DNA of 36,952 nt, from the IMG/VR virus record IMGVR_UViG_3300022200_000151, positions 1-36,952 of that record; one strand, 5' to 3'. The stretch is from a virus. Both the position numbers and the translations under genes were made by a program. Every line of letters begins with the position of its first letter. Within the stretch, counting starts at the first letter, position 1. Below, piece after piece: positions 4,424-20,038 of the stretch. Under the pieces are notes generated by a model. That model was given only the letters and a program-made list of their open reading frames with translations. It was not told where the DNA came from and made no database searches.

Positions 4424-5407
4424 TTATTTTGCTCGACTAGATAATTTATTCAATGTACTGTTAGCTGATTTATCTGCTTGATCTGCTTTGCCTTTTTTCT
4501 CAGCACCATGACCTGGTTGCTTAGAAGAAAATGCTTTACCAGCTTTACCACCTGGTACATTAATATTTCCAGTTTTCATATCAGTAGGATTTTGCTTGTT
4601 TAATGCAGAACCTTTAATTTTAGATCCTTTTCCCACTTCTGCACCTTTTTCAACAGTATTTCTAACTATGTTGCTTGCAGTGCCGCCCATGTCATTTTTT
4701 TTAGAAGGTAATGCACTTTTAGTATTTTGGCCGTTATCACCACCAATTTTTGCACCAAACCCACCGTTTACTTTTTCTACATATTCACGCATTTGTTCAG
4801 TAGGAGAATATGACTCTTTTGGCATAGCAGGCTCTTCATCTTCCATGTCTTCCATGTCTTCATCTTCCATGTCTTCCATGTCTTCATCTTCCATGTCTTC
4901 CATGTCTTCATCTTCCATGTCTTCCATGTCTTCATCTTCCATGTCTTCCATGTCATCGAAGTTTTCTTCACCTTCTTCGTTAGCCATCATTTGTTCAAAT
5001 TCTGCTTTTAAATCTTCTAATGCGTCTTCAAGATCAACTACTCGACTTTCCATATCGTCGCCTTCATCGTCCATGTCTTCATCGTCCATGTCACTCATAA
5101 AGTCATCAGTTTCGTCACCACCGATTTCGTCGGATTCGTCAAAATCTTCTACGTTGTCCCAATCGTATTCTTCTTCATCTTCATCGTCTAAGCTATCAAC
5201 ATAACTGTCATCATCGTCATCAAAATCATCAGATTCTTCTAAATCTTCATCGTCCATGTCGTCGTCTTTGTAATCGCTTTCTAATAACGACTCATAAATA
5301 TTACGAGATTTTTCAACTACAATCTCGTGAAATAATTCCTGTGCTGCTTCTTTTTCTTCATTAACAAGAAATTCAAGCATTTTTTTAAATTTTGCCAAAT
5401 TTGCCAT
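4424..5407 (-). CDS. Acidic prohead core protein, gp67-like
   Basis: A 327-aa protein with an N-terminal helix (about 1-45, LAKFKKMLEFLVNEEKEAAQ), a very acidic D/E-rich middle (about 46-195) and a basic, Gly/Lys-rich tail (about 215-327). A short helix followed by an acidic tract, and placement between gp20 and gp21, match T4 gp67, a small prohead core protein; the present protein is four times longer. Residues 152-191 are five copies of an eight-residue MEDMEDED repeat, encoded by perfect 24-bp DNA repeats. Starts at an ATG with AGGAG upstream and a late-type promoter box at 5428-5436. The gp67 assignment rests on context and composition more than on alignable sequence. Confidence 0.7.
   Translation of the reverse strand: MANLAKFKKMLEFLVNEEKEAAQELFHEIVVEKSRNIYESLLESDYKDDDMDDEDLEESDDFDDDDDSYVDSLDDEDEEEYDWDNVEDFDESDEIGGDETDDFMSDMDDEDMDDEGDDMESRVVDLEDALEDLKAEFEQMMANEEGEENFDDMEDMEDEDMEDMEDEDMEDMEDEDMEDMEDEDMEDMEDEEPAMPKESYSPTEQMREYVEKVNGGFGAKIGGDNGQNTKSALPSKKNDMGGTASNIVRNTVEKGAEVGKGSKIKGSALNKQNPTDMKTGNINVPGGKAGKAFSSKQPGHGAEKKGKADQADKSANSTLNKLSSRAK
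4834..4953 (-). repeat. Five perfect 24-bp tandem repeats in the gp67-like gene
   Basis: Five identical head-to-tail 24-bp units (starting at 4834, 4858, 4882, 4906, 4930) encode the acidic octapeptide MEDMEDED. The lack of any substitution between copies implies recent expansion or active homogenisation; copy number probably varies between relatives. Confidence 0.95.
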
Positions 5408-9227: not shown

Positions 9228-12200
9228 TTATGTTGCTGCAACTGCTACATTTCCAGATAATGCTCCAATCCTTCTAGTATTTCGTTCAATACCTTCATTA
9301 AATTCATGCATCTCTGTTAATATTTCAACTACTTGCTGCATTAACATATTTAGTTGTTCAGTATTACCAATTGCTTTTTGCGGTGTAGGCAAAATTTCAG
9401 TGTTATTATCTATGTTATTAGCCGATGTTGTAATGTTACTACTAATTAGCTGTTTTATTTCATTTACAGATGTAAGTAAATTATTCATAGTTACATTATT
9501 AAGTTCAACATCAGTTGTTGTATCTGTATTAACTTTAACATTCTCCAATACTGATTTAAAATCAGTATCAACAGGTTTTAACTTATCGTTAGGATTAGTT
9601 AATGATGCTTTAAAATCAGTATCAACAGGTTTTATCTTTTTTATATCATCATTTAATTTTGTTTTATCTAATTGCGACTCAAAATTGAAATTTCCAAACA
9701 ACCCGTCAATTTTTAATGGTTTAATATTTCCAGAACTACTAGACAAATCAGAAACTAATTGCATTGCTGCTTGGTATTTTTCAAGAGCTTTCAAATTATT
9801 GTCAATTTTATCAATATCAAACTGATTTTTTGTAAATTCATTTATTGCTTGATTTAATTGCTCCATTATTTTTGATAAAGGTGACGCAGTATCTTCAGCA
9901 GGAGCATCACTAAACATCGATGTTATAGAATCGAATATCTTATCAGTTATTGATTTTGGTTTTTCTGTGTTTAAACCTCTTAACAATTCAAATATATTAC
10001 TAATTTCAGTTACAGCTTTTGAAAAATCAACAAGTGCAGTTGTATTATCTAAAACTCTTGCTATATTATACGGTTCAATGGTAAATAAACTAATTATTTC
10101 ATTTATTTGGTGTATTGCATCAATTGCAGTTTCTGCTGAATCTATAGCAGATAAATTTTCTATTACTTCACTTGCGTGTTTAATTCCTAAACCCAATTCA
10201 GAATATGCTAAGGCATTGTTTTGAGCAACATCGGTATTAAACTGAAATGTTGTAAATGCTAACATCACTTCATTCATTTGATTAACAATATCAATAATAG
10301 ATGCTTTTGCTTTTTCTTCGCCAAACATTCCTACTATACTTTTAGTTAAAGTATCTGTTATCGATGGTGCTTCGTTTGCTCCGGTCATTTCATTAAACAA
10401 CTCGGTAATATTTTTCATTTCCCTAGCAGCATTTTTAAAATACAATAATGAAAAATAATTATTTTTTAGAACTTTATTGTCAATTTCTTCTGCACTAAAC
10501 GCCTTCATTGCATCCATTAACTGACTAAGATCGATTGCTTCAAAATTATCATCAATTTCAGGTAACATTGAAATTGCATCTAATGCCCAAGCAAAGTTAG
10601 ACACAGCTTCTGTATTTGATTTAATTACTTCAATATTGTACAATTGACTTGTAAACTGTATAATTGCTGCTGTTAACTTTGAAAAATCAAGTTTACCAAT
10701 TTCTTCAATGTTTTCTAGTTTTGGAATAGAACCGATTGATGTAATTGCACTTGAAAATTCTTGAACTGCTTTAGAATTTTCCTTAATTATATCTGAATTT
10801 AAACCTAAACTTTGAAAATATAGAACTTTATCTTCAATAATTTTTAAATTTAACGCAGAAAAACTTTTTTCGTCAAACGTAACATTAGCAATGCTAGTTA
10901 ATCCAGATGCAAACTCTTGAATAGCCATTGTATTTGATTTTACAGCATCTGCTAGTAATCCCATACTTTGAAATTCTAATACTTTTTCTCTAATTACATC
11001 TATATCTATATTTTCAATTTCATTTATAGTGTCTGGGATTTTACCTACTGATGATAAACCGTTTGAAAATTCTATCACAGCATTAGCATTAGATTTCATT
11101 ATATCTGGTGATAAACCCATACTTTGAAATTCTATCAGTTTTTCTTTAATTGTATCAATGTCAATTTCATCAATGTCATCGTTCATTGATGGGATTTTAC
11201 TTGCAGCATTAATTGCTTCTGAAAATGATATAATAGAATCTTTATTATTATTGATAATATCAAGTTTAAATGTATTTTCTGTAAACTCGTTGATGATATC
11301 AATCATATCGTCTAAATCGATATCTTCAAATTTATCTTCAAGCGATACTTTTTCAATAGCTCCAATATCAACCATTGCTTGTGCAAAAATTTTAACAGCA
11401 TCGGCATTATTCTGAATACGTTTTGTTTTAAATTTTACTTCTGAGAACTTTTGTATTTTTTCAATGGGCGAATCAGCTCCAAACCATTCTCCAACTGATG
11501 ATATAATCGATCCTACTATATTGCCTACGGCTCCTAATGCTTCACCACTGCCAAGCGACGCCATTGCTTTACCGTATGCTGCAAGTGCTTCTGCATTTTG
11601 TTTTATTTTATCAACAGGTAAGTTTGGTTTTGCAAAATCTTCTAGTTTTTGTAAAGGAGTATCGACTCCTGCTAATTCGCCTAAACTTGAAATAAATGAA
11701 CCTAGTATGTTACCTACTGCTCCGATAACTCCTCCTGCTCCCATAGCTGCAAGCGCAGCTCCAACAGCAGCCATTGCTTTAGCATTTTCTATAATTTTGT
11801 CGCCATTAATGTTTTCAAAATCAATTAAACCTGAAGAAATTTCGCTAATACCTTTACCGATAACCCATGCGCCAGCACCTATTGCAGCAGCAGCCACTCC
11901 TACGCCAGCTCCGATAATTCCAATCGCAGTACTTAAATAAGTTGCTCCTGCAACAACAGTTGGTGGGATTTTTGCTATACCTTGTGCTACACCTGCTATT
12001 AAATCACCTACACCTTTTCCTAACCCTTTAGCTAAACTAGCAAATGCTGACCCAAGACCTGAGCCAATATCTTTTAGCAATCGTTTTATACTTTTACCAA
12101 AATTCTTAGCAAGGTCGTACATTCCCTTACCAAATTCTTTATTTGCTCCTTGAGTAGGGTCTAATGATCCGCCTGGAGGTGTTGGAGGAGATCCAGGTGG

Positions 12201-13793
12201 AGGTGCTCCTTTTCCTTTACCAAATTTATCAAGAATAGATCCTTTAATTAGATCTCCAATTCCACCTAATGATTTGCTAAATAGGGTTGACGCTACTAAT
12301 AGTCCACCAAATGCTGCAGCTAGTTTAGCAGTATCACTTCCAAATGAAGTAATACCGTTAACAAAAACTTCAATAGCTCCAACTAAGTTATTTGTAATAA
12401 ATTCAAATACTCCTGAATCAATGAATAGTTTCTGTAACTTTGCACTAGCAGTTCTCATTACATCGTCAAATTTTACCATTGCTTCGGTAGTTTCATCTCT
12501 TGATTGTTGCTCTTGTTTTGCTTTGTCAAGATCCATTGAACCGATTGCTGTTAATTTATTAGAGACATCTAAGAACTCTGCCATAGCTGGATTTGATGCT
12601 CTTAAATTGTCAATTAATTGTTTTCTAGCTGCCGCATCACCTTGAGCAAATTTTTCTAAATCACCACCTGCAGATTTCATAGCATCTAATAATACTTGTG
12701 GATTCGCTCCTTTGCCTATATCAGTTAATGCCTGTTGCATTACTGGACCGGACTTTCCTAACATTGCAAAAAATTGTCCAGTTTCTTTTGTGCTAGGCAT
12801 TCCATCTAACATATCTTTAAACACATCACCGACAGTTCCACCTACTTTGTCAATTAACCCTAATGACATTTGTAAGTTTTTAAACTGTTCTGATCCTTCT
12901 TCAAATTGATTTAATAAAGTTCTAACACTAGAGTCAGTTGCTTGTTTTTTTAGAGCTTCTTCTGCTTCTTTTCTAGTTTGTCCAGTAACTTTAGCAAGTT
13001 TATCAATTTGTTCTAAATATTCTGCACTACCTCGAGCTAGTTCTACATTTGATTTTGATTGTAAAGTTCCCATATTAGCCTGAAGCTCAATATAGTCACT
13101 CATTCCTTCATTAATTTCTTGAACAGTAAACCCTAAATTCTTCAAATCATCAAAATGTTTAGTAGCTTTTAATGTTTTATTCATTAATGCAAATCGTTGC
13201 ACACCTTCAGTAACTGTTCCACCTAATAGTCTTAATGACTGTGAATTACTTGAAATAAAACCGGACATTTCATCTAAACTAAGTTCTAAGTTTGCTGAAA
13301 CTCGTTTCATTTCAACAATACTATTGTTAAAAGATGCCCCACTTGCATTTAACGTGCGATATACATCAATACTTTTATCTAAATGTCTAGCTATTCCATC
13401 TAAATAACCACCAACAACAGGTAAATGTCGTGCAAAGTCTGATATTGCTGTGCTGTTAGATAACAATTCATCTGTCATACTAAGTAAGCTTCTTGAAAAT
13501 GCTATCATCGAACCTTTTGCTACATTACCAAGAGAACTTGAAAATTTCTTAGTTTCTTCTGTTGCATCTTCAACAGCTTCGGTATGATCTTCAACAGCTT
13601 CGGTATCTTCTTCAATTGCTTTAGATCGTTTATGCAAATCCTTAATGATTTTTTTAATATCTTTCCCAGAATCTTTAGATTGGGATTTAGCTAGTTTTTG
13701 CATTGCTAACAATAAACTGTATAATGTTGCTTCCGAAGCAACACCGTCACTGCCAGCTTGTCCTACATTTAAAATATTAACGTCTTCAGCCAC
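9228..13793 (-). CDS. Probable tail tape measure protein with ~12 repeats
   Basis: A 1521-aa protein. Residues 35-90 are charged helix or coiled coil; 90-480 mixed helical; hydrophobic segments lie near 493-512 and 615-648 in a Gly/Ala/Ile-rich zone; a Pro-rich linker (PPPGSPPTPPGG) is at 530-542. Residues ~666-1390 hold about twelve divergent repeats of 52-83 residues, each opening with (I/V)KxN-x-x-A-(V/I)-x-x-F and a helix A-(M/L)-x-x-(I/V). Great length, central membrane-like stretch and repeats suit a tape measure (T4 gp29 counterpart), and the tail-chaperone-like gp26 cassette is its divergent neighbour. No gp29-specific motif was recognised, so another virion role remains possible. It starts at GTG (13791-13793) with AAGGA nine bases upstream. 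Confidence 0.6.
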   Translation of the reverse strand: MAEDVNILNVGQAGSDGVASEATLYSLLLAMQKLAKSQSKDSGKDIKKIIKDLHKRSKAIEEDTEAVEDHTEAVEDATEETKKFSSSLGNVAKGSMIAFSRSLLSMTDELLSNSTAISDFARHLPVVGGYLDGIARHLDKSIDVYRTLNASGASFNNSIVEMKRVSANLELSLDEMSGFISSNSQSLRLLGGTVTEGVQRFALMNKTLKATKHFDDLKNLGFTVQEINEGMSDYIELQANMGTLQSKSNVELARGSAEYLEQIDKLAKVTGQTRKEAEEALKKQATDSSVRTLLNQFEEGSEQFKNLQMSLGLIDKVGGTVGDVFKDMLDGMPSTKETGQFFAMLGKSGPVMQQALTDIGKGANPQVLLDAMKSAGGDLEKFAQGDAAARKQLIDNLRASNPAMAEFLDVSNKLTAIGSMDLDKAKQEQQSRDETTEAMVKFDDVMRTASAKLQKLFIDSGVFEFITNNLVGAIEVFVNGITSFGSDTAKLAAAFGGLLVASTLFSKSLGGIGDLIKGSILDKFGKGKGAPPPGSPPTPPGGSLDPTQGANKEFGKGMYDLAKNFGKSIKRLLKDIGSGLGSAFASLAKGLGKGVGDLIAGVAQGIAKIPPTVVAGATYLSTAIGIIGAGVGVAAAAIGAGAWVIGKGISEISSGLIDFENINGDKIIENAKAMAAVGAALAAMGAGGVIGAVGNILGSFISSLGELAGVDTPLQKLEDFAKPNLPVDKIKQNAEALAAYGKAMASLGSGEALGAVGNIVGSIISSVGEWFGADSPIEKIQKFSEVKFKTKRIQNNADAVKIFAQAMVDIGAIEKVSLEDKFEDIDLDDMIDIINEFTENTFKLDIINNNKDSIISFSEAINAASKIPSMNDDIDEIDIDTIKEKLIEFQSMGLSPDIMKSNANAVIEFSNGLSSVGKIPDTINEIENIDIDVIREKVLEFQSMGLLADAVKSNTMAIQEFASGLTSIANVTFDEKSFSALNLKIIEDKVLYFQSLGLNSDIIKENSKAVQEFSSAITSIGSIPKLENIEEIGKLDFSKLTAAIIQFTSQLYNIEVIKSNTEAVSNFAWALDAISMLPEIDDNFEAIDLSQLMDAMKAFSAEEIDNKVLKNNYFSLLYFKNAAREMKNITELFNEMTGANEAPSITDTLTKSIVGMFGEEKAKASIIDIVNQMNEVMLAFTTFQFNTDVAQNNALAYSELGLGIKHASEVIENLSAIDSAETAIDAIHQINEIISLFTIEPYNIARVLDNTTALVDFSKAVTEISNIFELLRGLNTEKPKSITDKIFDSITSMFSDAPAEDTASPLSKIMEQLNQAINEFTKNQFDIDKIDNNLKALEKYQAAMQLVSDLSSSSGNIKPLKIDGLFGNFNFESQLDKTKLNDDIKKIKPVDTDFKASLTNPNDKLKPVDTDFKSVLENVKVNTDTTTDVELNNVTMNNLLTSVNEIKQLISSNITTSANNIDNNTEILPTPQKAIGNTEQLNMLMQQVVEILTEMHEFNEGIERNTRRIGALSGNVAVAAT
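9555..9634 (-). repeat. 26-bp direct repeat in the tape-measure-like gene
   Basis: Two identical 26-bp copies (9555-9580 and 9609-9634), 54 bases apart start to start, encode the repeated peptide KPVDTDFK near the protein's C-terminus. Confidence 0.85.
9624..11798 (-). repeat. Protein-level repeat array in the tape-measure-like gene
   Basis: Encodes residues ~666-1390, about twelve diverged units. Unit starts read from the translation: 668, 730, 793, 847, 899, 951, 1003, 1057, 1109, 1190, 1247, 1330. Four middle units are 52 residues long and share FQSMGL-type ends. DNA identity between units is low, so these are old repeats. Confidence 0.75.
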
Positions 13794-13819: not shown

Positions 13820-13827
13820 TATAAATA
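13820..13827 (+). promoter_or_regulatory. Late promoter box TATAAATA before gp26
   Basis: An exact copy of the T4 late consensus, 42 bases before the gp26 ATG. Transcription would start near 13833. The ribosome site GGAGA follows at 13859-13863. Confidence 0.75.
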
Positions 13828-13868: not shown

Positions 13869-14735
13869 ATGGATAACAAACCTAACATGATTGAAAGCAA
13901 TCCTCTTAAAAAATATTTTAGACAACCTAAAATGTTTATTCAATTACCTAGCGGTGGTAAATTTTATAGTCCAGGCTCGTTAAATATGCCTGAAACCGGT
14001 GAGCTACCTGTTTTTGCAATGACTGCAAAAGATGAGTTAATTATGAAAACTCCTGATGCATTATTAAATGGGCAAGCAACAGTTGATGTAATTCAAAGTT
14101 GTATTCCTAACATTGTTGACGCATGGAGTATGCCTAGTATCGATTTAGACGCAGTGTTGATAGCAATTCGAATTGCTACATATGGTGATTCTATGGATAT
14201 TACTTCAAATATTCCGGGCTTAAATGAAGAACGTGATTTTGTTGTAAACTTACGTAAGTTATTAGTAAATCTTTCATCTGTCGAATTTAACCCAGAAATT
14301 TCTATTGGAGAAATGACAGTTACTATTAGACCGTTAACTTACAAAGAATTTACTGCTAACAGTTTAAAAACATTTGAAGAACAACGTGTGTTTTCAATTG
14401 TGAATAATGCAGACATGTCTGATATTGACAAACTGAAACAGTTTAATGTTAGTTTTAAAAAATTAACTGAATTAACTATCACTTCAATTGCTCAAAGTAT
14501 TACTAAAATTCAAATTGGAGATACAGAAGTTACTAATTCAGAATATATTATGGACTTTATTAATAACTCTGATAAAGAATTTTATAAAAATGTAATCGAC
14601 CACATTGAAGAACAAAAATCTAAATTTGAATTAGAACCGTTACAAGCTAATTTTTCACCAGAAGATATTGAAAAAGGAGCACCGGAAACATATGAAATCC
14701 CTATTACATTTGATCAATCAAATTTTTTCGTATAA
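13869..14735 (+). CDS. gp26: Baseplate hub assembly protein gp26-like
   Basis: A 288-aa protein of the T4_baseplate (gp26/gp51-type) family: NPLKKYFRQPKMFIQLPSGG near the start, then PVFAMTAKDELIMKTPDALLNG and a C-terminal gp26-like region. In T4 this group acts catalytically in assembling the baseplate hub, and related proteins in other tailed phages are tail assembly chaperones. The start ATG has GGAGA and an exact late promoter upstream. The last codons (AAT TTT TTC GTA TAA) form a strong -1 slippery run just before the stop, followed at the right distance by a stem-loop. The alternative product would be a ~363-aa fusion with the next ORF. The normal product is confident; the fusion is inferred. 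Confidence 0.9.
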   Translation: MDNKPNMIESNPLKKYFRQPKMFIQLPSGGKFYSPGSLNMPETGELPVFAMTAKDELIMKTPDALLNGQATVDVIQSCIPNIVDAWSMPSIDLDAVLIAIRIATYGDSMDITSNIPGLNEERDFVVNLRKLLVNLSSVEFNPEISIGEMTVTIRPLTYKEFTANSLKTFEEQRVFSIVNNADMSDIDKLKQFNVSFKKLTELTITSIAQSITKIQIGDTEVTNSEYIMDFINNSDKEFYKNVIDHIEEQKSKFELEPLQANFSPEDIEKGAPETYEIPITFDQSNFFV

Positions 14736-14766
14736 GGATCTTGTCTTGGACAATGGATGAGATCCT
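14720..14766 (+). promoter_or_regulatory. Candidate -1 programmed frameshift signal
   Basis: The gp26 frame reads (a)AAT TTT TTC, giving two overlapping slippery heptamers, A-AAT-TTT (14720-14726) and T-TTT-TTC (14723-14729). The zero-frame stop is two codons later (14733). A stem AGGATCT/AGATCCT (14735-14741 with 14760-14766, 7 bp), enclosing a second TGTC/GACA helix, starts five bases after the slip site. The -1 frame is open from 14714 to 14959. Confidence 0.75.
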
Positions 14767-14959
14767 ACATGAAGTAAAAAGATATGAAGGATATCAAAAA
14801 GAAATTAAACATGAGATTTATAAGTTATGTTGGTTTATGAGAGGAAGTATTTCCCTTGAAGAAGGATTTTATTTAACTCATGAAGATAGAACAATAATAT
14901 CAGACATTATTAAAGACAACATAGAAACAACTAAGAAAACACATATTGCTTTCATTTAA
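14753..14959 (+). CDS. Short ORF, likely the frameshifted C-terminal extension of gp26
   Basis: From its ATG at 14753 it encodes 68 residues; the frame is open back to 14714 in the -1 frame of gp26. Sequence: MDEILHEVKRYEGYQKEIKH, a KLCWFMRGSISLEEGFYLTH segment and DIIKDNIETTKKT near the end. The small helical make-up resembles the T part of G-GT tail chaperone pairs, though I assign this by layout and general appearance. The ATG lies inside the predicted hairpin and its nearest AAGGA is 14 bases upstream, too far for good independent initiation; a TTG at 14741 is only two bases from it, too close. Fusion to gp26 by -1 frameshifting after Phe287 would add 76 residues. Stand-alone translation cannot be excluded. 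Confidence 0.7.
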   Translation: MDEILHEVKRYEGYQKEIKHEIYKLCWFMRGSISLEEGFYLTHEDRTIISDIIKDNIETTKKTHIAFI

Positions 14960-14999: not shown

Positions 15000-15209
15000 T
15001 AGAGAGCATTCCTTTCCATTATAATCTACTATTAAGTGTTTTAACTTCGTTAAAACAAAAGTTTCGTAATATTCGTTTATCTACTTCGTAGACTAAACTC
15101 TTATTACTCACTTTATTTTATTTGTTCTTAAATTATTAATTTCTTTTAAAGCTCTTAAAGAATATTCATCTAGATAGGAGAGCCATAATTTGCCCAAAAC
15201 GGGCAAATT
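15000..15209. other. Gene-free AT-rich stretch
   Basis: No convincing coding frame. Visible structure: two triloop hairpins with TTC loops on the plus strand (GTTTTAAC/GTTAAAAC near 15038-15056 and TCTAC/GTAGA near 15080-15092), and a perfect 9-bp inverted repeat AATTTGCCC/GGGCAAATT at 15187-15209 with the A/T-run on the wrong side for termination. Confidence 0.5.
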
Positions 15210-15238
15210 AAAAAAAATACTTCATCTGAGTGAGTATT
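15210..15238 (-). terminator. Probable terminator of the candidate ncRNA
   Basis: Minus-strand stem AATACT/AGTATT (15233-15238 with 15216-15221) followed by eight T (15217-15210). The stem is only six pairs with an 11-base loop, so strength is uncertain. Confidence 0.5.
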
Positions 15239-15510
15239 CACCATCATAACAAAAGAGATTTAAATTAAAGTAATTTAACAGAAGCGGTTGACCGGTACTC
15301 CTTACTCTAGCTTTGCGAATGTCAACGGAAAGTACAATATGCCTGTTATGCAACATATTATACTTAGCAGGTTGTAATCTTTTTCACAGAGCCTGCATCA
15401 TTTAATGCCTGAAGTTAGCGTTTGCCTGTCAGCACGTTAGATCCAACTGAAATTTTTCATACAGTTTCAAAACGAGTCGAGCAACCTCGACTAAACAAAG
15501 CTGATTAATG

Positions 15511-15606: not shown

Positions 15607-16059
15607 TTAAATTTTTTTCCTAGTCATTTCTTTTTCTTCTGGTAGCAAATCAGGAGGGATGAATTTTATTGCAGATATTTGACGATTGTAATATCGAGGA
15701 AGTGAGTTAGGTAACTTTTCAGTTAATACATTTTCTAGTATTTGCATTCTAACTTCTGCATACGTTAATGAACCTTTAGTTTTATGAAGGGATTCGATGA
15801 AAAATTCAAAATTGTCTTTTCCTTTTTCATCGATTGCATGGTTTAGATGAGTAGAAGAACTAGTATAAGTTCTCCAGTTTGATTCTTTTTTTATAATTTT
15901 ACGATTTTTTCTGTGTTTAACTACTTTGCGTAGTTGATTGAAAAAACATTTTTTACCAATATATTCTTGATTAGTAGTTAAATCTCGTATTCGATAAATG
16001 AATCCATACCAGTCTTCAGGGTTAAATTCTTTATCAAATATCCAATGACCTAAATCCAT
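15607..16059 (-). CDS. GIY-YIG family endonuclease (putative homing type)
   Basis: A 150-aa protein with the GIY-YIG signature near the N-terminus: GFIYRI at 19-24 and YIGKK at 33-37, followed by a basic block (RKVVKHRKNRKIIKKESNWR) and YTSSSTHLNHAI. This layout is found in T4-type Seg-like and I-TevI-related phage nucleases. The family cuts DNA with the first Tyr and a downstream Arg/Glu; I place Glu in the later helix (YAEVRM) only tentatively. The gene is short, with little room for a separate DNA-binding domain. Its ribosome site AAGGAAG is buried in a 12-bp hairpin that ends at the ATG. It follows the 74-aa gene by 73 bases. Confidence 0.8.
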   Translation of the reverse strand: MDLGHWIFDKEFNPEDWYGFIYRIRDLTTNQEYIGKKCFFNQLRKVVKHRKNRKIIKKESNWRTYTSSSTHLNHAIDEKGKDNFEFFIESLHKTKGSLTYAEVRMQILENVLTEKLPNSLPRYYNRQISAIKFIPPDLLPEEKEMTRKKI

Positions 16060-16366: not shown

Positions 16367-19300
16367 TTAGTTTTTTGATCGTGAAATATGATAATATTTA
16401 GTTCCTTTTGATTCGCCCATAATTACACGAGCTCCAATGTCAGACCACTTTAGGTTATTCCGTTTTAGAACATTAGAAATGTACTTATATGTACTTTCAT
16501 TTACTACCTCAATGTTATTAAATTTATTAACAAACTTATTCCACGAATCCTTTCCAGGTGAAACATCAACATTTCGATTATTAAGATTAGCTAATGTTGT
16601 AGCAGTACTCTGTAAAAGTTTGAGTGCTGTCTTATGTTCTATAGAATTTAATTGTTGTTTAGATAATAACTCTGATAATTCATCAATTCGCTCTTCCCAT
16701 GTTTTTATTATTAAATCATTTTGTTTATCAAACTCCAATGTGCTAGCTGAATCTATCTCTGGCAAAGCGTTAATTATCTCAGCAAGTTCTTTTCCAGATT
16801 TTGAGTTGCTAATTTTATTCTTTATTATTTTCACATCTGTAGTTTTAGCCGGTTGTTTATTATTCTTTGATTTTGTAGTATCATCCTTTGCCGGTTTACT
16901 AGTATTATTTGGTGCAGTTTTAACACTATTTTTTAAATCTTCTTGGTATTTGCCAGCAGCATCTATCCACATCAATGCTTGATCAGTAACATCAGATTTT
17001 GGATTATTTAAGATCTGATTTCCTATTTGTATTAATAAGTTTTTAGTGCTATCTAGAGTTGTACTATTTTCAAGTCTAGTAAACACTTCTTCATACCAAT
17101 CTTTTAAAGGTTGACCTATAGTTGTTACTCCTGATGCAGGCTCGTAGTTGTTAACTTTATTATATAAGTCGTTTATATCAGTAATTTTAGTTTTTTCCTT
17201 TTGAGCATTAGAACTCGGTTTCTTTTCATTTGACTGCTGCTGTTGAGCATTAGAACTCGGTTTCTTTTCATTTGACTGCTGCTGTTGAGCATTAGAACTC
17301 GGTTTCTTTTCATTTGACTGCTGCTGTTGATCATTAGAACTCGGTTTCTTTTCATTTGACTGCTGCTGTTGAGCGTTTGGTTGGTTATTAGTTTTAGTTT
17401 TCCCAGGTCTTCGAGGTTTAACATTTAAATAAATTTCTGAAGTTGATGGAACATCTGCTCCATTACTAATTTCCACCCATGCTCTTGCGTAATTAGTAAG
17501 ATTGTAAATTGAATTTTCTGGATTTAAAATTTTAGATGCAGCATTATTTAACATTTTATAACGAACATTACTATTTGATGCAGTATGTACCTTTTTAAAA
17601 TCTGCAAGTATACGGTCCCTTATTGGCTTTTGTTGTTTTAGGTCTTTTAAATTTAGTTCAGTAGAACCACTAGCAGCAGTGTACTTCTTTACAGCTTCAT
17701 AATTTTTATCAAACGCATTCTTAACTTTTGGCGATACCTCTGGTTCAGTAGATACCTCTGGTTCAGCAGATACCTCTGGTTCAGTAGATACCTCTGGTTC
17801 AGCAGATACCTCTGGTTCAGTAGATACCTCTGGTTCAGTAGATACCTCTGGTTCAGCAGATACCTCTGGTTCAGTAGATACCTCTGGTTCAGTAGATACC
17901 TCTGGTTCAGTAGATACTTCAGGGTAGTGTTTATTAATAAATTTTTTAACTTTTTTCTGCAATCCTAACCGTTTAATATCATCAGCTAATGTTTGAATAC
18001 TAATATTTCCAGCATTACCAGCACCACTTGCAGCATTACCAGCACCACTTGCAGCATTACTAGCACCACTTGCAGCATTACCAGCACCACTTGCAGCATT
18101 ACCAGCACCACTTGCAGCATTACCAGCACCACTTGCAGCATTACCTGCACTACTACCTGTAGTATTTGAACTTTGATTTGGAATAGTTGCAGTAGCTAAA
18201 TCAATTGAAAGACTATTAGCAATATCGTCGATACTAGTATCAGTTAGTCCTGCTTGTTTTAGAATATTTGCTATGCTACTACTATCAGTCGGCTCACCTG
18301 CGTTCTTCCATAAAGAATTTAGCATGTCAGCAGTAACTTTGCGAGATGCTTTTTTAGCAACTTTTTGTGCCGATTTTTGTGCCGATTTTACCAAATCACC
18401 GAATGTACTTTCAGAAATAACATATGTAGATGATGCAAGTAATGATGCTTCTAAATTGTTTAATAACGTATTTGATTCTGATAGCAAGTTTGAAGATGAT
18501 TTTAACATAGATTCTTTGTTAGCCTTATGTTTAGCATCCCATTTAGCAATTTGTTCGTCTGCTGGCGTAGGTAAATCCCCAAGCTCGTCTTCAGTATTAT
18601 TATACGTTTGTTTCTCTTCATCAGTCATGTTTCTCAGTTGATCTATTCTAGAAGCTTCTTTAGCTTCAAAATTAGCCTCAACATCAGCAGCAAATCCTGG
18701 ATTTTTATCTTTTAAGAACTGCTCGACAGGTTCCGGTAAGTTAAATGATCCTTTACCACCGTGTTGAGTTAAAAGGCGTTTATATTCTTGTGCTTCGTCA
18801 GGAGAAAGATAATATCCTCTTACAACTGTTCCTTTGAACTTAAAATTCCCATCCTCACCTTGGATATTAGCTGCAATCTTATCTAACAATTCTTGATTAG
18901 CAGGCAGACCTTTGTGATATTTTCCTATATATTTGTCATAAACTTCTTGAGCATACTCTGCTTTAGTAGTAGGAACAAAATCTGCGGCATTGGAAAAATT
19001 GTGCCGATTAACTATTTCTTCGAGTCTATCCCAATCACTGCCTACTACAGTATTACCTAAATCTAAGTTATTTAAAGCACTTCTAATTGCAGCATCATCG
19101 CTAGCATCAATAGATCCAGAATTAATTTGTTGTTGTATTTGGTTTATTGCATAATCATCAGGAGTGATATATCCTTTTTTTAAGTTATCAAGAGTCATTG
19201 GCGGTTTTTTCATACTACTAGTATCGTTGCTACTTGCACTGCTGTGTGAAGTTGCAGCATTTTTATCAAATGATGAATCATTTCCTGCAGAACCGCTACT

Positions 19301-20038
19301 GTAATTAGAACTACTATTACTATTACTTGTAGCGTTATCTTCGTCATCGTATACATTAGACCATTCATCAGGAGAATCATTCATCATGTCACTAACGCCG
19401 CCTACTGCAGCACCTGCAGCAGCACCCATAGCACCCTTTCCAAGAGCAGTAGATAGTTTATCACCTTTGATAGCATTATTAGTTAATCTAATAAAAAAGC
19501 CAATAGCAGATCCACTAACCACACCACCGCTTGCAAATGATAGTATAGCAACCATAGCACCGACAATAAATGCACTTTTTACAGGTGAATCTTTTGAAAA
19601 TTTTTGCCATTGTTTAACTGCGGCTAATACTTTTTTACCATACGGCTTGCCTTTTAATGCAGTTGTTAACTGTCTTTGTAATTTTATAAATTGTGCATCT
19701 ATATTTCTAACAGGTTTAGTATTTTGTGCAGATTTTAATAGCTTATCAATTTCAACTTTCAGTTCATTTGCAAGTTTTGAAGATACTGAACTTACTTTAC
19801 CAAAAGTATTTAAATTATCGCCGGAGGCTTCGGCATTAGTTTCAGCAGTTTGAAAAATTTTTTGAATATCGTCTGGAGATAATTCTGCTTCCATTAATCT
19901 ACTATAATGCTCAACTAACGGCCATACTTTATTTTCCCAGCGGTATAAATAAACTTGCTGTGTTTCTGTTAACTGCCCCCAACTTTCTGTTAAGAGTCTT
20001 GATGATTTATTTCTTTGTCCTAGTAATCTACGATTCAT
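16367..20038 (-). CDS. Large repeat-rich protein, possibly a packaged internal protein
   Basis: A 1223-aa protein I do not recognise by name. The N-terminal 220 residues look folded: charged helices, then hydrophobic segments at about 154-184 (FIVGAMVAILSFASGG) and an Ala/Gly run at 203-215. Residues from ~230 are low complexity: Ser/Asn tracts, six GNAASGA copies, eleven EPEVST-type copies and four 14-residue QQQQSNEKKPSSNA copies. The last ~45 residues (YKYISNVLKRNNLKWSDIGA) look folded again. L-x-E protease-like sites occur early (LTE/S after 18, LTE/T after 25, LME/A after 50). Its ATG overlaps the stop of the 193-aa gene by one base (TAATG), implying translational coupling. A virion role is inferred from the late-type control and these features. 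Confidence 0.75.
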   Translation of the reverse strand: MNRRLLGQRNKSSRLLTESWGQLTETQQVYLYRWENKVWPLVEHYSRLMEAELSPDDIQKIFQTAETNAEASGDNLNTFGKVSSVSSKLANELKVEIDKLLKSAQNTKPVRNIDAQFIKLQRQLTTALKGKPYGKKVLAAVKQWQKFSKDSPVKSAFIVGAMVAILSFASGGVVSGSAIGFFIRLTNNAIKGDKLSTALGKGAMGAAAGAAVGGVSDMMNDSPDEWSNVYDDEDNATSNSNSSSNYSSGSAGNDSSFDKNAATSHSSASSNDTSSMKKPPMTLDNLKKGYITPDDYAINQIQQQINSGSIDASDDAAIRSALNNLDLGNTVVGSDWDRLEEIVNRHNFSNAADFVPTTKAEYAQEVYDKYIGKYHKGLPANQELLDKIAANIQGEDGNFKFKGTVVRGYYLSPDEAQEYKRLLTQHGGKGSFNLPEPVEQFLKDKNPGFAADVEANFEAKEASRIDQLRNMTDEEKQTYNNTEDELGDLPTPADEQIAKWDAKHKANKESMLKSSSNLLSESNTLLNNLEASLLASSTYVISESTFGDLVKSAQKSAQKVAKKASRKVTADMLNSLWKNAGEPTDSSSIANILKQAGLTDTSIDDIANSLSIDLATATIPNQSSNTTGSSAGNAASGAGNAASGAGNAASGAGNAASGASNAASGAGNAASGAGNAGNISIQTLADDIKRLGLQKKVKKFINKHYPEVSTEPEVSTEPEVSTEPEVSAEPEVSTEPEVSTEPEVSAEPEVSTEPEVSAEPEVSTEPEVSPKVKNAFDKNYEAVKKYTAASGSTELNLKDLKQQKPIRDRILADFKKVHTASNSNVRYKMLNNAASKILNPENSIYNLTNYARAWVEISNGADVPSTSEIYLNVKPRRPGKTKTNNQPNAQQQQSNEKKPSSNDQQQQSNEKKPSSNAQQQQSNEKKPSSNAQQQQSNEKKPSSNAQKEKTKITDINDLYNKVNNYEPASGVTTIGQPLKDWYEEVFTRLENSTTLDSTKNLLIQIGNQILNNPKSDVTDQALMWIDAAGKYQEDLKNSVKTAPNNTSKPAKDDTTKSKNNKQPAKTTDVKIIKNKISNSKSGKELAEIINALPEIDSASTLEFDKQNDLIIKTWEERIDELSELLSKQQLNSIEHKTALKLLQSTATTLANLNNRNVDVSPGKDSWNKFVNKFNNIEVVNESTYKYISNVLKRNNLKWSDIGARVIMGESKGTKYYHISRSKN
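17203..17370 (-). repeat. Four 42-bp tandem repeats
   Basis: Units at 17203, 17245, 17287 and 17329 encode SSNAQQQQSNEKKP-type 14-mers. They are identical apart from one base in the last copy (Ala to Asp). Confidence 0.95.
17733..17930 (-). repeat. Eleven 18-bp tandem repeats (EPEVST)
   Basis: Ten near-identical 18-bp units from 17733 to 17912 plus a diverged eleventh encode EPEVS followed by T or A. The only variation in the ten units is GTA/GCA, the Thr/Ala choice. Confidence 0.93.
18020..18145 (-). repeat. Six 21-bp tandem repeats (GNAASGA)
   Basis: Six head-to-tail 21-bp units encode GNAASGA; the second copy has one base change (Gly to Ser). Confidence 0.95.

Follow-up and report, generated by a model that had tools for sequence, protein, structure and literature searches.

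A probable programmed -1 ribosomal frameshift in a T4 gp26-type gene for a proposed tail assembly chaperone

Introduction

The gpG and gpGT proteins of phage lambda are produced from one gene by a -1 slip close to where the short form ends; an early stop completes the short protein, a C-terminal extension is carried by the minor long form, and the tape measure gene lies nearby. Xu, Hendrix and Duda are said to have reported in 2004 that such a frameshift is conserved in the tail genes of dsDNA phages. The locus described here appears to share this layout. It differs from lambda in that the gene belongs to another family (PF12322), the heptamer is T TTT TTC with a downstream hairpin, and the adjoining tape-measure-like gene is divergent instead of lying downstream in the same operon.

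T4-like phages provide further described cases. According to passages in later papers, some of these phages carry a short gene and a fused long gene instead of frameshifting (PMC10885494, citing Vladimirov 2022), and T4-like TAC-N genes are known to contain poly-T -1 signals (PMC12846349, citing Vladimirov 2022). As cited there, the TAC-N genes of Vladimirov, Gautam and Davidson (2022) are T4-like chaperone genes with a poly-T -1 signal, as in the present locus. The gp26 and gp51 proteins of T4 itself belong to the same family, PF12322, as the gp26 analyzed here, and gp51 consists of a PF12322 domain and a C-terminal extension. Unlike the single gene of the present locus, the two T4 forms are encoded by separate genes on opposite strands, and neither showed direct BLASTP similarity to the proteins studied here (best E 0.19). 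Among the literature matches listed, no description was noticed of a frameshift in RaK2-like or marine relatives, or of a hairpin that switches arms.

A virus record of 36,952 bases (hereafter, the window) was analyzed in order to follow up an original prediction, made from its letters, that a -1 frameshift fuses gp26 to a downstream open reading frame (ORF). Comparison of relatives strongly supported this claim, and indicated that one gp26-related gene very probably gives rise to a short and a rarer long protein by a -1 slip at a fixed site.

Results

The gp26-type gene and its relatives

The gp26 of the window matched PF12322 in a Pfam scan (44.7 bits, above the curated cut-off of 24.5) and phrog_150, a baseplate hub family, in a PHROG scan. 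Its structural model (pLDDT 83.6) matched viral structure predictions that bear the name baseplate hub assembly protein, T4-like (best E 5.3e-22, TM 0.84). Fold searches of the PDB with gp26 and the extension returned no match at E <= 0.001, structural likeness on the PDB side was confined to unrelated helical parts (VIA Z <= 7.8), and PDB sequence searches yielded nothing convincing (best E 0.24, and 0.008 to coiled-coil constructs). The 3' end of the gene reads TCA AAT TTT TTC GTA TAA, and two products of 288 and 363 aa with a common N-terminal part are predicted from it (Table 1).

A search with gp26 found 191 relatives, of which the best 80 (54-100% identity) were kept; 66 loci were left after the removal of 14 with identical gp26-to-extension DNA. 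A search with the extension alone found at least 571 relatives, of which 80 were kept, including 21 on contigs already in the gp26 set and thus 59 new ones. A scan of genome contigs for relatives found none. The sequence TATAAATA, which we take to be a T4-late-promoter-like motif, occurred upstream of gp26, at a distance of up to 130 nt, in 40 of the 66 loci and in antisense in 46 (an uncontrolled count), and was not enriched across the whole window.

Table 1. Features of the gp26 locus and its surroundings in the window.
Feature	Position	Strand	Basis or remark
1521-aa divergent neighbor, likely tape measure protein and client	9228-13793	-	synteny, N-terminal homology
Presumed late-promoter-like motif TATAAATA upstream of gp26	13820-13827	+	motif match
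gp26-type gene, 288 aa, encoding the short form of the proposed chaperone	13869-14735	+	PF12322, phrog_150
Overlapping heptamer A AAT TTT, not required	14720-14726	+	broken in 2/80 and 20/59 relatives
Slippery heptamer T TTT TTC	14723-14729	+	in frame in 80/80 and 59/59 relatives
-1 extension, 76 codons and stop, C-terminal part of the proposed 363-aa long form	14729-14959	+	dN/dS 0.20, 0 stops in 65 sequences
5-nt spacer	14730-14734	+	5 nt in 35/44 junctions with z < -2
Zero-frame stop TAA	14733-14735	+	one codon (GTA) between heptamer and stop
Candidate stimulatory hairpin, 12-bp stem 14735-14746 / 14755-14766	14735-14766	+	folding
Conserved noncoding element downstream of the extension and before the next gene, core 15221-15396	15160-15400	+	
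SegE-like GIY-YIG homing endonuclease gene	15607-16059	-	PF19835, E 3.1e-34; adjoins the gp26 cassette
1223-aa protein	16367-20038	-	short tandem repeat runs visible in the translation

The slippery site

T TTT TTC was present in the zero frame in each of the 80 gp26 relatives (the best 80 of 191), and TTTTTTC lay directly 5' of the extension in all 59 further contigs. The zero-frame stop followed after one codon in 77 of the 80 relatives and after four codons in the other three. The overlapping heptamer A AAT TTT decays among the relatives (Table 1); T TTT TTC was therefore taken as the working site, and A AAT TTT was rejected. The original prediction had placed two overlapping heptamers in the gp26 frame and a zero-frame stop two codons past the slip site. 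All of these positions proved correct, but only T TTT TTC is retained throughout.

The largest excess of synonymous conservation in gp26 was found immediately before the slip codons, where TCA and AAT were the two top columns of 256 that could be scored (2047 sequence pairs). AAT, TTT, and TTC were identical in all 65 sequences. In the test proposed with the original prediction, the slip site and the frame are fixed in the alignment, while synonymous sites drift among relatives. Of 31 ORFs in the window that reach 100 aa or more, four carry a canonical heptamer no more than 60 nt from the stop, and the -1 frame past the stop remains open for 74 codons at gp26 vs. 10, 10, and 11 codons at the other three. 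The combination of a slip site with an open -1 frame is far beyond chance.

The -1 frame extension

The -1 frame opens at 14714, after a TGA at 14711-14713, and ends with the TAA at 14957-14959. The slipped product would comprise 363 aa (287 + 76 residues) with the junction NFFRIR, which agrees with the predicted frame open over the junction to 14959 and fusion of about 363 aa. The extension is 76 codons long in 79 of the 80 gp26 relatives, the remaining one being cut by a contig end, and in all 59 further contigs. This truncated extension (L040) was left out of the selection and start-codon counts. The median dN/dS was 0.20 in the -1 frame (99 usable pairs of 150 sampled; 51 gave no value), compared to 1.04 and 1.71 in the other two frames (150 pairs each), and the -1 frame contained no stop in any of 65 sequences, whereas the other frames contained a mean of 7.7 and 7.0 per sequence. 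The extension ORF is under purifying selection. Its product is predicted to be helical (pLDDT 91), and the window extension had no match in PHROG or Pfam.

The downstream hairpin

Stimulatory structures of -1 frameshifts are spaced 5-9 nt from the slip site. A candidate 12-bp hairpin was found at 5 nt in the window, and the 61-nt stretch folded at -16.2 kcal/mol (z -3.2), with one of 200 shuffles as good. The stem thus starts five bases past the heptamer, as predicted; the inner TGTC/GACA helix that was proposed along with it was rejected, as it competes with the 12-bp stem of the minimum-energy fold and showed no recurrence in the alignment by eye.

After identical junctions were collapsed, 54 distinct junctions remained in the first set and 48 in the second, which came from the extension search. 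RNAalifold over all 54 recovered just five pairs (-0.98 kcal/mol), in our opinion because the lineages do not have the 3' arm in common. In its place, each junction was folded singly and compared with a coding-preserving null. When the 63-nt stretch was set against synonymous recodings of its peptide, z < -2 was reached in 44 of the 54 junctions and missed in 10; in the second set, 31 of the 48 junctions reached the same value. Among isolates, with XacN1 and RAS14 (T7 run) left out, z < -2 was observed in four of 15 (Atu_ph07, PBECO4, XaC1, and Sf-FS3); a hairpin such as that of the window was mostly not found there.

Across the 54 junctions, the 12-bp stem was formed in 82.4% of cells, compared to 30-47% when one arm was slid and 76.8% in column shuffles. 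Changes on both sides were detected at eight of the 12 stem pairs, which was equalled by 17 of 500 shuffles, and 207 of the 500 matched the count of further pair types. Neither of these two controls speaks for the stem. In loci L005, L022, L034, L068, L074, and L077, the 5' arm (AGGATCTT or similar) was kept but paired farther downstream, and likewise in L073, but with p 0.057. A search of Rfam with the window and nine other loci returned nothing at gathering scores.

The divergent neighbor

A homologue of the 1521-aa protein was located in the same place in all 65 loci tested; L034 was left out because it had too little upstream DNA. The 59 complete homologues measured 780-1523 aa from stop to stop and were mostly alike over the N-terminal 500 residues, and at least one strongly hydrophobic segment was found in all 59 homologues longer than 700 aa. 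The best match to the 1521-aa protein was a short internal stretch in L016, L030, and L031. Its N-terminal part was homologous to the gp26-adjoining protein in ten isolates (Prob 99.6, E 1.7e-23), including RaK2, whose record annotates the protein on the gp26 side as similar to tape measure. In a PHROG scan of six neighbor homologues, one matched a tape measure PHROG (E 1.2e-4), and three matched phrog_14121, a family that PHROGs places in the "head and packaging" category instead of the tail one. The 1521-aa protein itself had no tblastn match in the phage collection and no Pfam match over the cut-off. Its position and homologies suggest that the 1521-aa protein, which adjoins gp26 but is divergently transcribed, is likely a tape measure protein. 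A large divergent neighbor was absent from four of 14 isolates (Atu_ph07, XacN1, RAS14, and Vibrio 2.275), and a passage of the Atu_ph07 paper names another gene, gp701, as tape measure (PMC6102473).

Similar cassettes in reference phages

The gp26 of the window matched 64 phage records, of which 16 were examined. A run of six or seven T (T6 or T7) at the corresponding position, together with a -1 extension, was identified in 14 of them (Atu_ph07, Phosso, PBECO4, MIJ3, XaC1, PHA46, BF, RaK2, GAP32, XacN1, SCTP-2, Vibrio 2.275, RAS14, and XbC2). The run was TTTTTTC in 12 and TTTTTTT in XacN1 and RAS14. Jumbo phages such as RaK2, PBECO4, MIJ3, Atu_ph07, and Phosso resemble the window in their gp26 homologue, T6/T7 run, and -1 extension (14/14), and a large divergent neighbor is present in 10 of the 14; on the other hand, their gp26 is about 25-33% identical to that of the window, and the hairpin is mostly weak. 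T4 gp26 matched 1275 records, and four non-T-even ones were examined. TTTTTTC with a -1 extension was present in cyanophage Sf-FS3, Rhizobium phage IC12, and Aeromonas phage phiAS5, whereas Cygsa01 contained a -1 ORF but no canonical heptamer.

In the other two of the 16 records, the following ORF is in the +1 frame: it occupies 4734-4970 in Microcystis phage Mel-JY01 (L096), with 69 codons past the stop, and lies near 4762 in LR756508 (L098), with 86 codons past the stop. Mel-JY01 carries CTTTTTTTGG immediately 5' of the stop, which perhaps allows a -2 or +1 shift, and its gene order is sheath, tube, gp26, +1-frame ORF, short ORF, and very long ORF. The small -1 ORF of Pseudomonas phage Cygsa01 (L101, 5290-5482) is annotated as baseplate hub assembly catalyst and begins at an overlapping TAATG; coupled initiation may take the place of frameshifting in this phage.

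Relation to T4 gp26 and gp51

PF12322 spans residues 1-201 of T4 gp51, and phrog_150 spans residues 3-248. Over its length, the fused family could be aligned to five gp51 proteins (hhalign Prob 71%, E 4.5e-6), whereas the extension alone gave a probability of just 10-14%. The -1 ORF of Sf-FS3 matched phrog_634, a baseplate hub assembly catalyst family (E 4.7e-25); its match to the C-terminal part of phrog_150 was weak (E 0.0014). Two PF12322 copies (gp26 and gp51) were present in all five T-even-type genomes; in 19 other genomes, one copy was found in 17, and SCTP-2 and Mel-JY01 fell below the threshold. An unrooted tree of 26 rows, with long branches, split 16 frameshift-type proteins from T-even gp26 and gp51 with a support of 97/95. 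phiAS5 was nearest to the T-even side, with a support of just 86/84, and T-even gp26 was not recovered as one group. No slippery site was seen by eye in T4 gene 26. Because the fusion is modestly similar to gp51, the frameshift may have been replaced in T4 by gene duplication, which resulted in two separate genes.

Other features near the cassette

The conserved noncoding element downstream of the extension is a candidate structured RNA. A covariance model built from five copies found it in nine of the 79 sources searched; beyond the building copies, these included L048 (the same sequence as L047), L065 (E 5.5e-21), L076 (E 5.5e-18), and a cut-off piece in L069. The consensus fold contains 52 pairs, of which 13 have changes on both sides. 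The element had no match at the Rfam gathering score and none in the phage DNA collection. The 1223-aa protein farther downstream had a single PHROG match, to a family with no function assigned there.

Discussion

The gp26 locus of the window very probably carries a programmed -1 ribosomal frameshift cassette, placed at the 3' end of a gene for a T4-gp26-type tail assembly chaperone, as judged from the fixed slip site and frame, selection on both frames, the hairpin, and synteny. We infer that most ribosomes would read on to the TAA and release the 288-aa short form, which would be the commoner product. Some ribosomes would pause with tRNA-Phe on TTT in the P site and on TTC in the A site, held up by the hairpin 5 nt downstream, then slip back by one base onto TTT TTT and continue in the -1 frame to give the rarer 363-aa long form. 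By analogy to lambda gpG/gpGT, both forms together would coat the tape measure protein until the tail tube polymerizes around it, and the coated client would most likely be the divergently transcribed 1521-aa product. The prediction that gp26 and its fusion are the chaperone pair for this neighbor gains support from PF12322, which also covers T4 gp51, from the short/long layout, and from the constant neighbor.

The extension might be read instead as a separate small protein with its own or coupled initiation, as several GenBank records do by annotating a separate CDS (e.g., Phosso, PBECO4, Serratia BF, XbC2, Sf-FS3, and Cygsa01). The original prediction gave the ORF no well-placed ribosome site of its own; the window does have a TTG at 14741 and an ATG at 14753 in the -1 frame, together with AAGGA at 14734-14738, but neither codon is a start shared by the relatives. 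An ATG, GTG, or TTG occurs within the first 15 codons of the extension in 39 of the 65 sequences but is absent in 26, and no position is common to them. Moreover, extension residues 1, 3, 4, and 5 are invariant or nearly so, although they lie upstream of most possible starts, and separate initiation leaves the invariant heptamer unexplained. This explanation was rejected because no start is shared, and we consider it very improbable. It is equally hard to credit that slippage of RNA polymerase, with a U gained or lost at the T6 run, produces mRNAs in the other frame. The run of six T, or seven in XacN1 and RAS14, is what such slippage would use, and ribosomal and transcriptional slippage are not fully separable by sequence comparison alone. 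However, six T is short for efficient polymerase slippage, the phase of T TTT TTC is exactly right for tandem tRNA slippage, and a hairpin at 5 nt fits ribosomal frameshifting.

A real frameshift whose product is a baseplate hub component or assembly catalyst, and not a tape measure chaperone, is unlikely, but deserves more weight than these two explanations. The Pfam and PHROG names refer to the baseplate, as does the annotation of T4 gp51 (baseplate hub assembly protein), and solved chaperones gave no structural match. Passages of papers citing Vladimirov 2022 nevertheless treat the T4-like chaperone genes as identified. The short and long isoforms follow the chaperone layout, the tape-measure-like neighbor is constant (65/65 loci), and gp26 lies directly 3' of the tube gene in IC12 and Mel-JY01, all of which argue for the chaperone function of the frameshift products.

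Because poly-T -1 signals in T4-like chaperone genes are already in print, according to the passages cited above, this kind of cassette is known, and the window provides a well-supported further case of frameshifting T4-like tail chaperones. The remark in the original prediction that no such case was described for T4 itself is consistent with the lack of a visible site in T4 gene 26 and the presence of a second PF12322 gene, 51; with T4-like poly-T signals in print, the novelty is less than was thought.

It seems about an even chance that a single gp26 with a -1 frameshift is the older T4-type route to a chaperone pair, and that T-even-type phages duplicated the gene and hard-wired the long form as gp51. 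In the same proposal, frameshifting in the marine lineage would be tuned by a hairpin whose 5' arm is fixed and whose 3' arm was relocated downstream more than once, so that the RNA switch evolves partly independently of its host protein. In many marine and jumbo phages, the cassette would account for a long isoform of a core tail gene that is missing from the annotation, and it would correct several GenBank records in which the extension is listed as "baseplate hub assembly catalyst" or as a hypothetical protein of its own. The switched arms also provide a set of naturally varied frameshift hairpins. The origin of the T4 gp26/gp51 pair becomes testable, with slippage on a single gene in some phages set against two genes in others.
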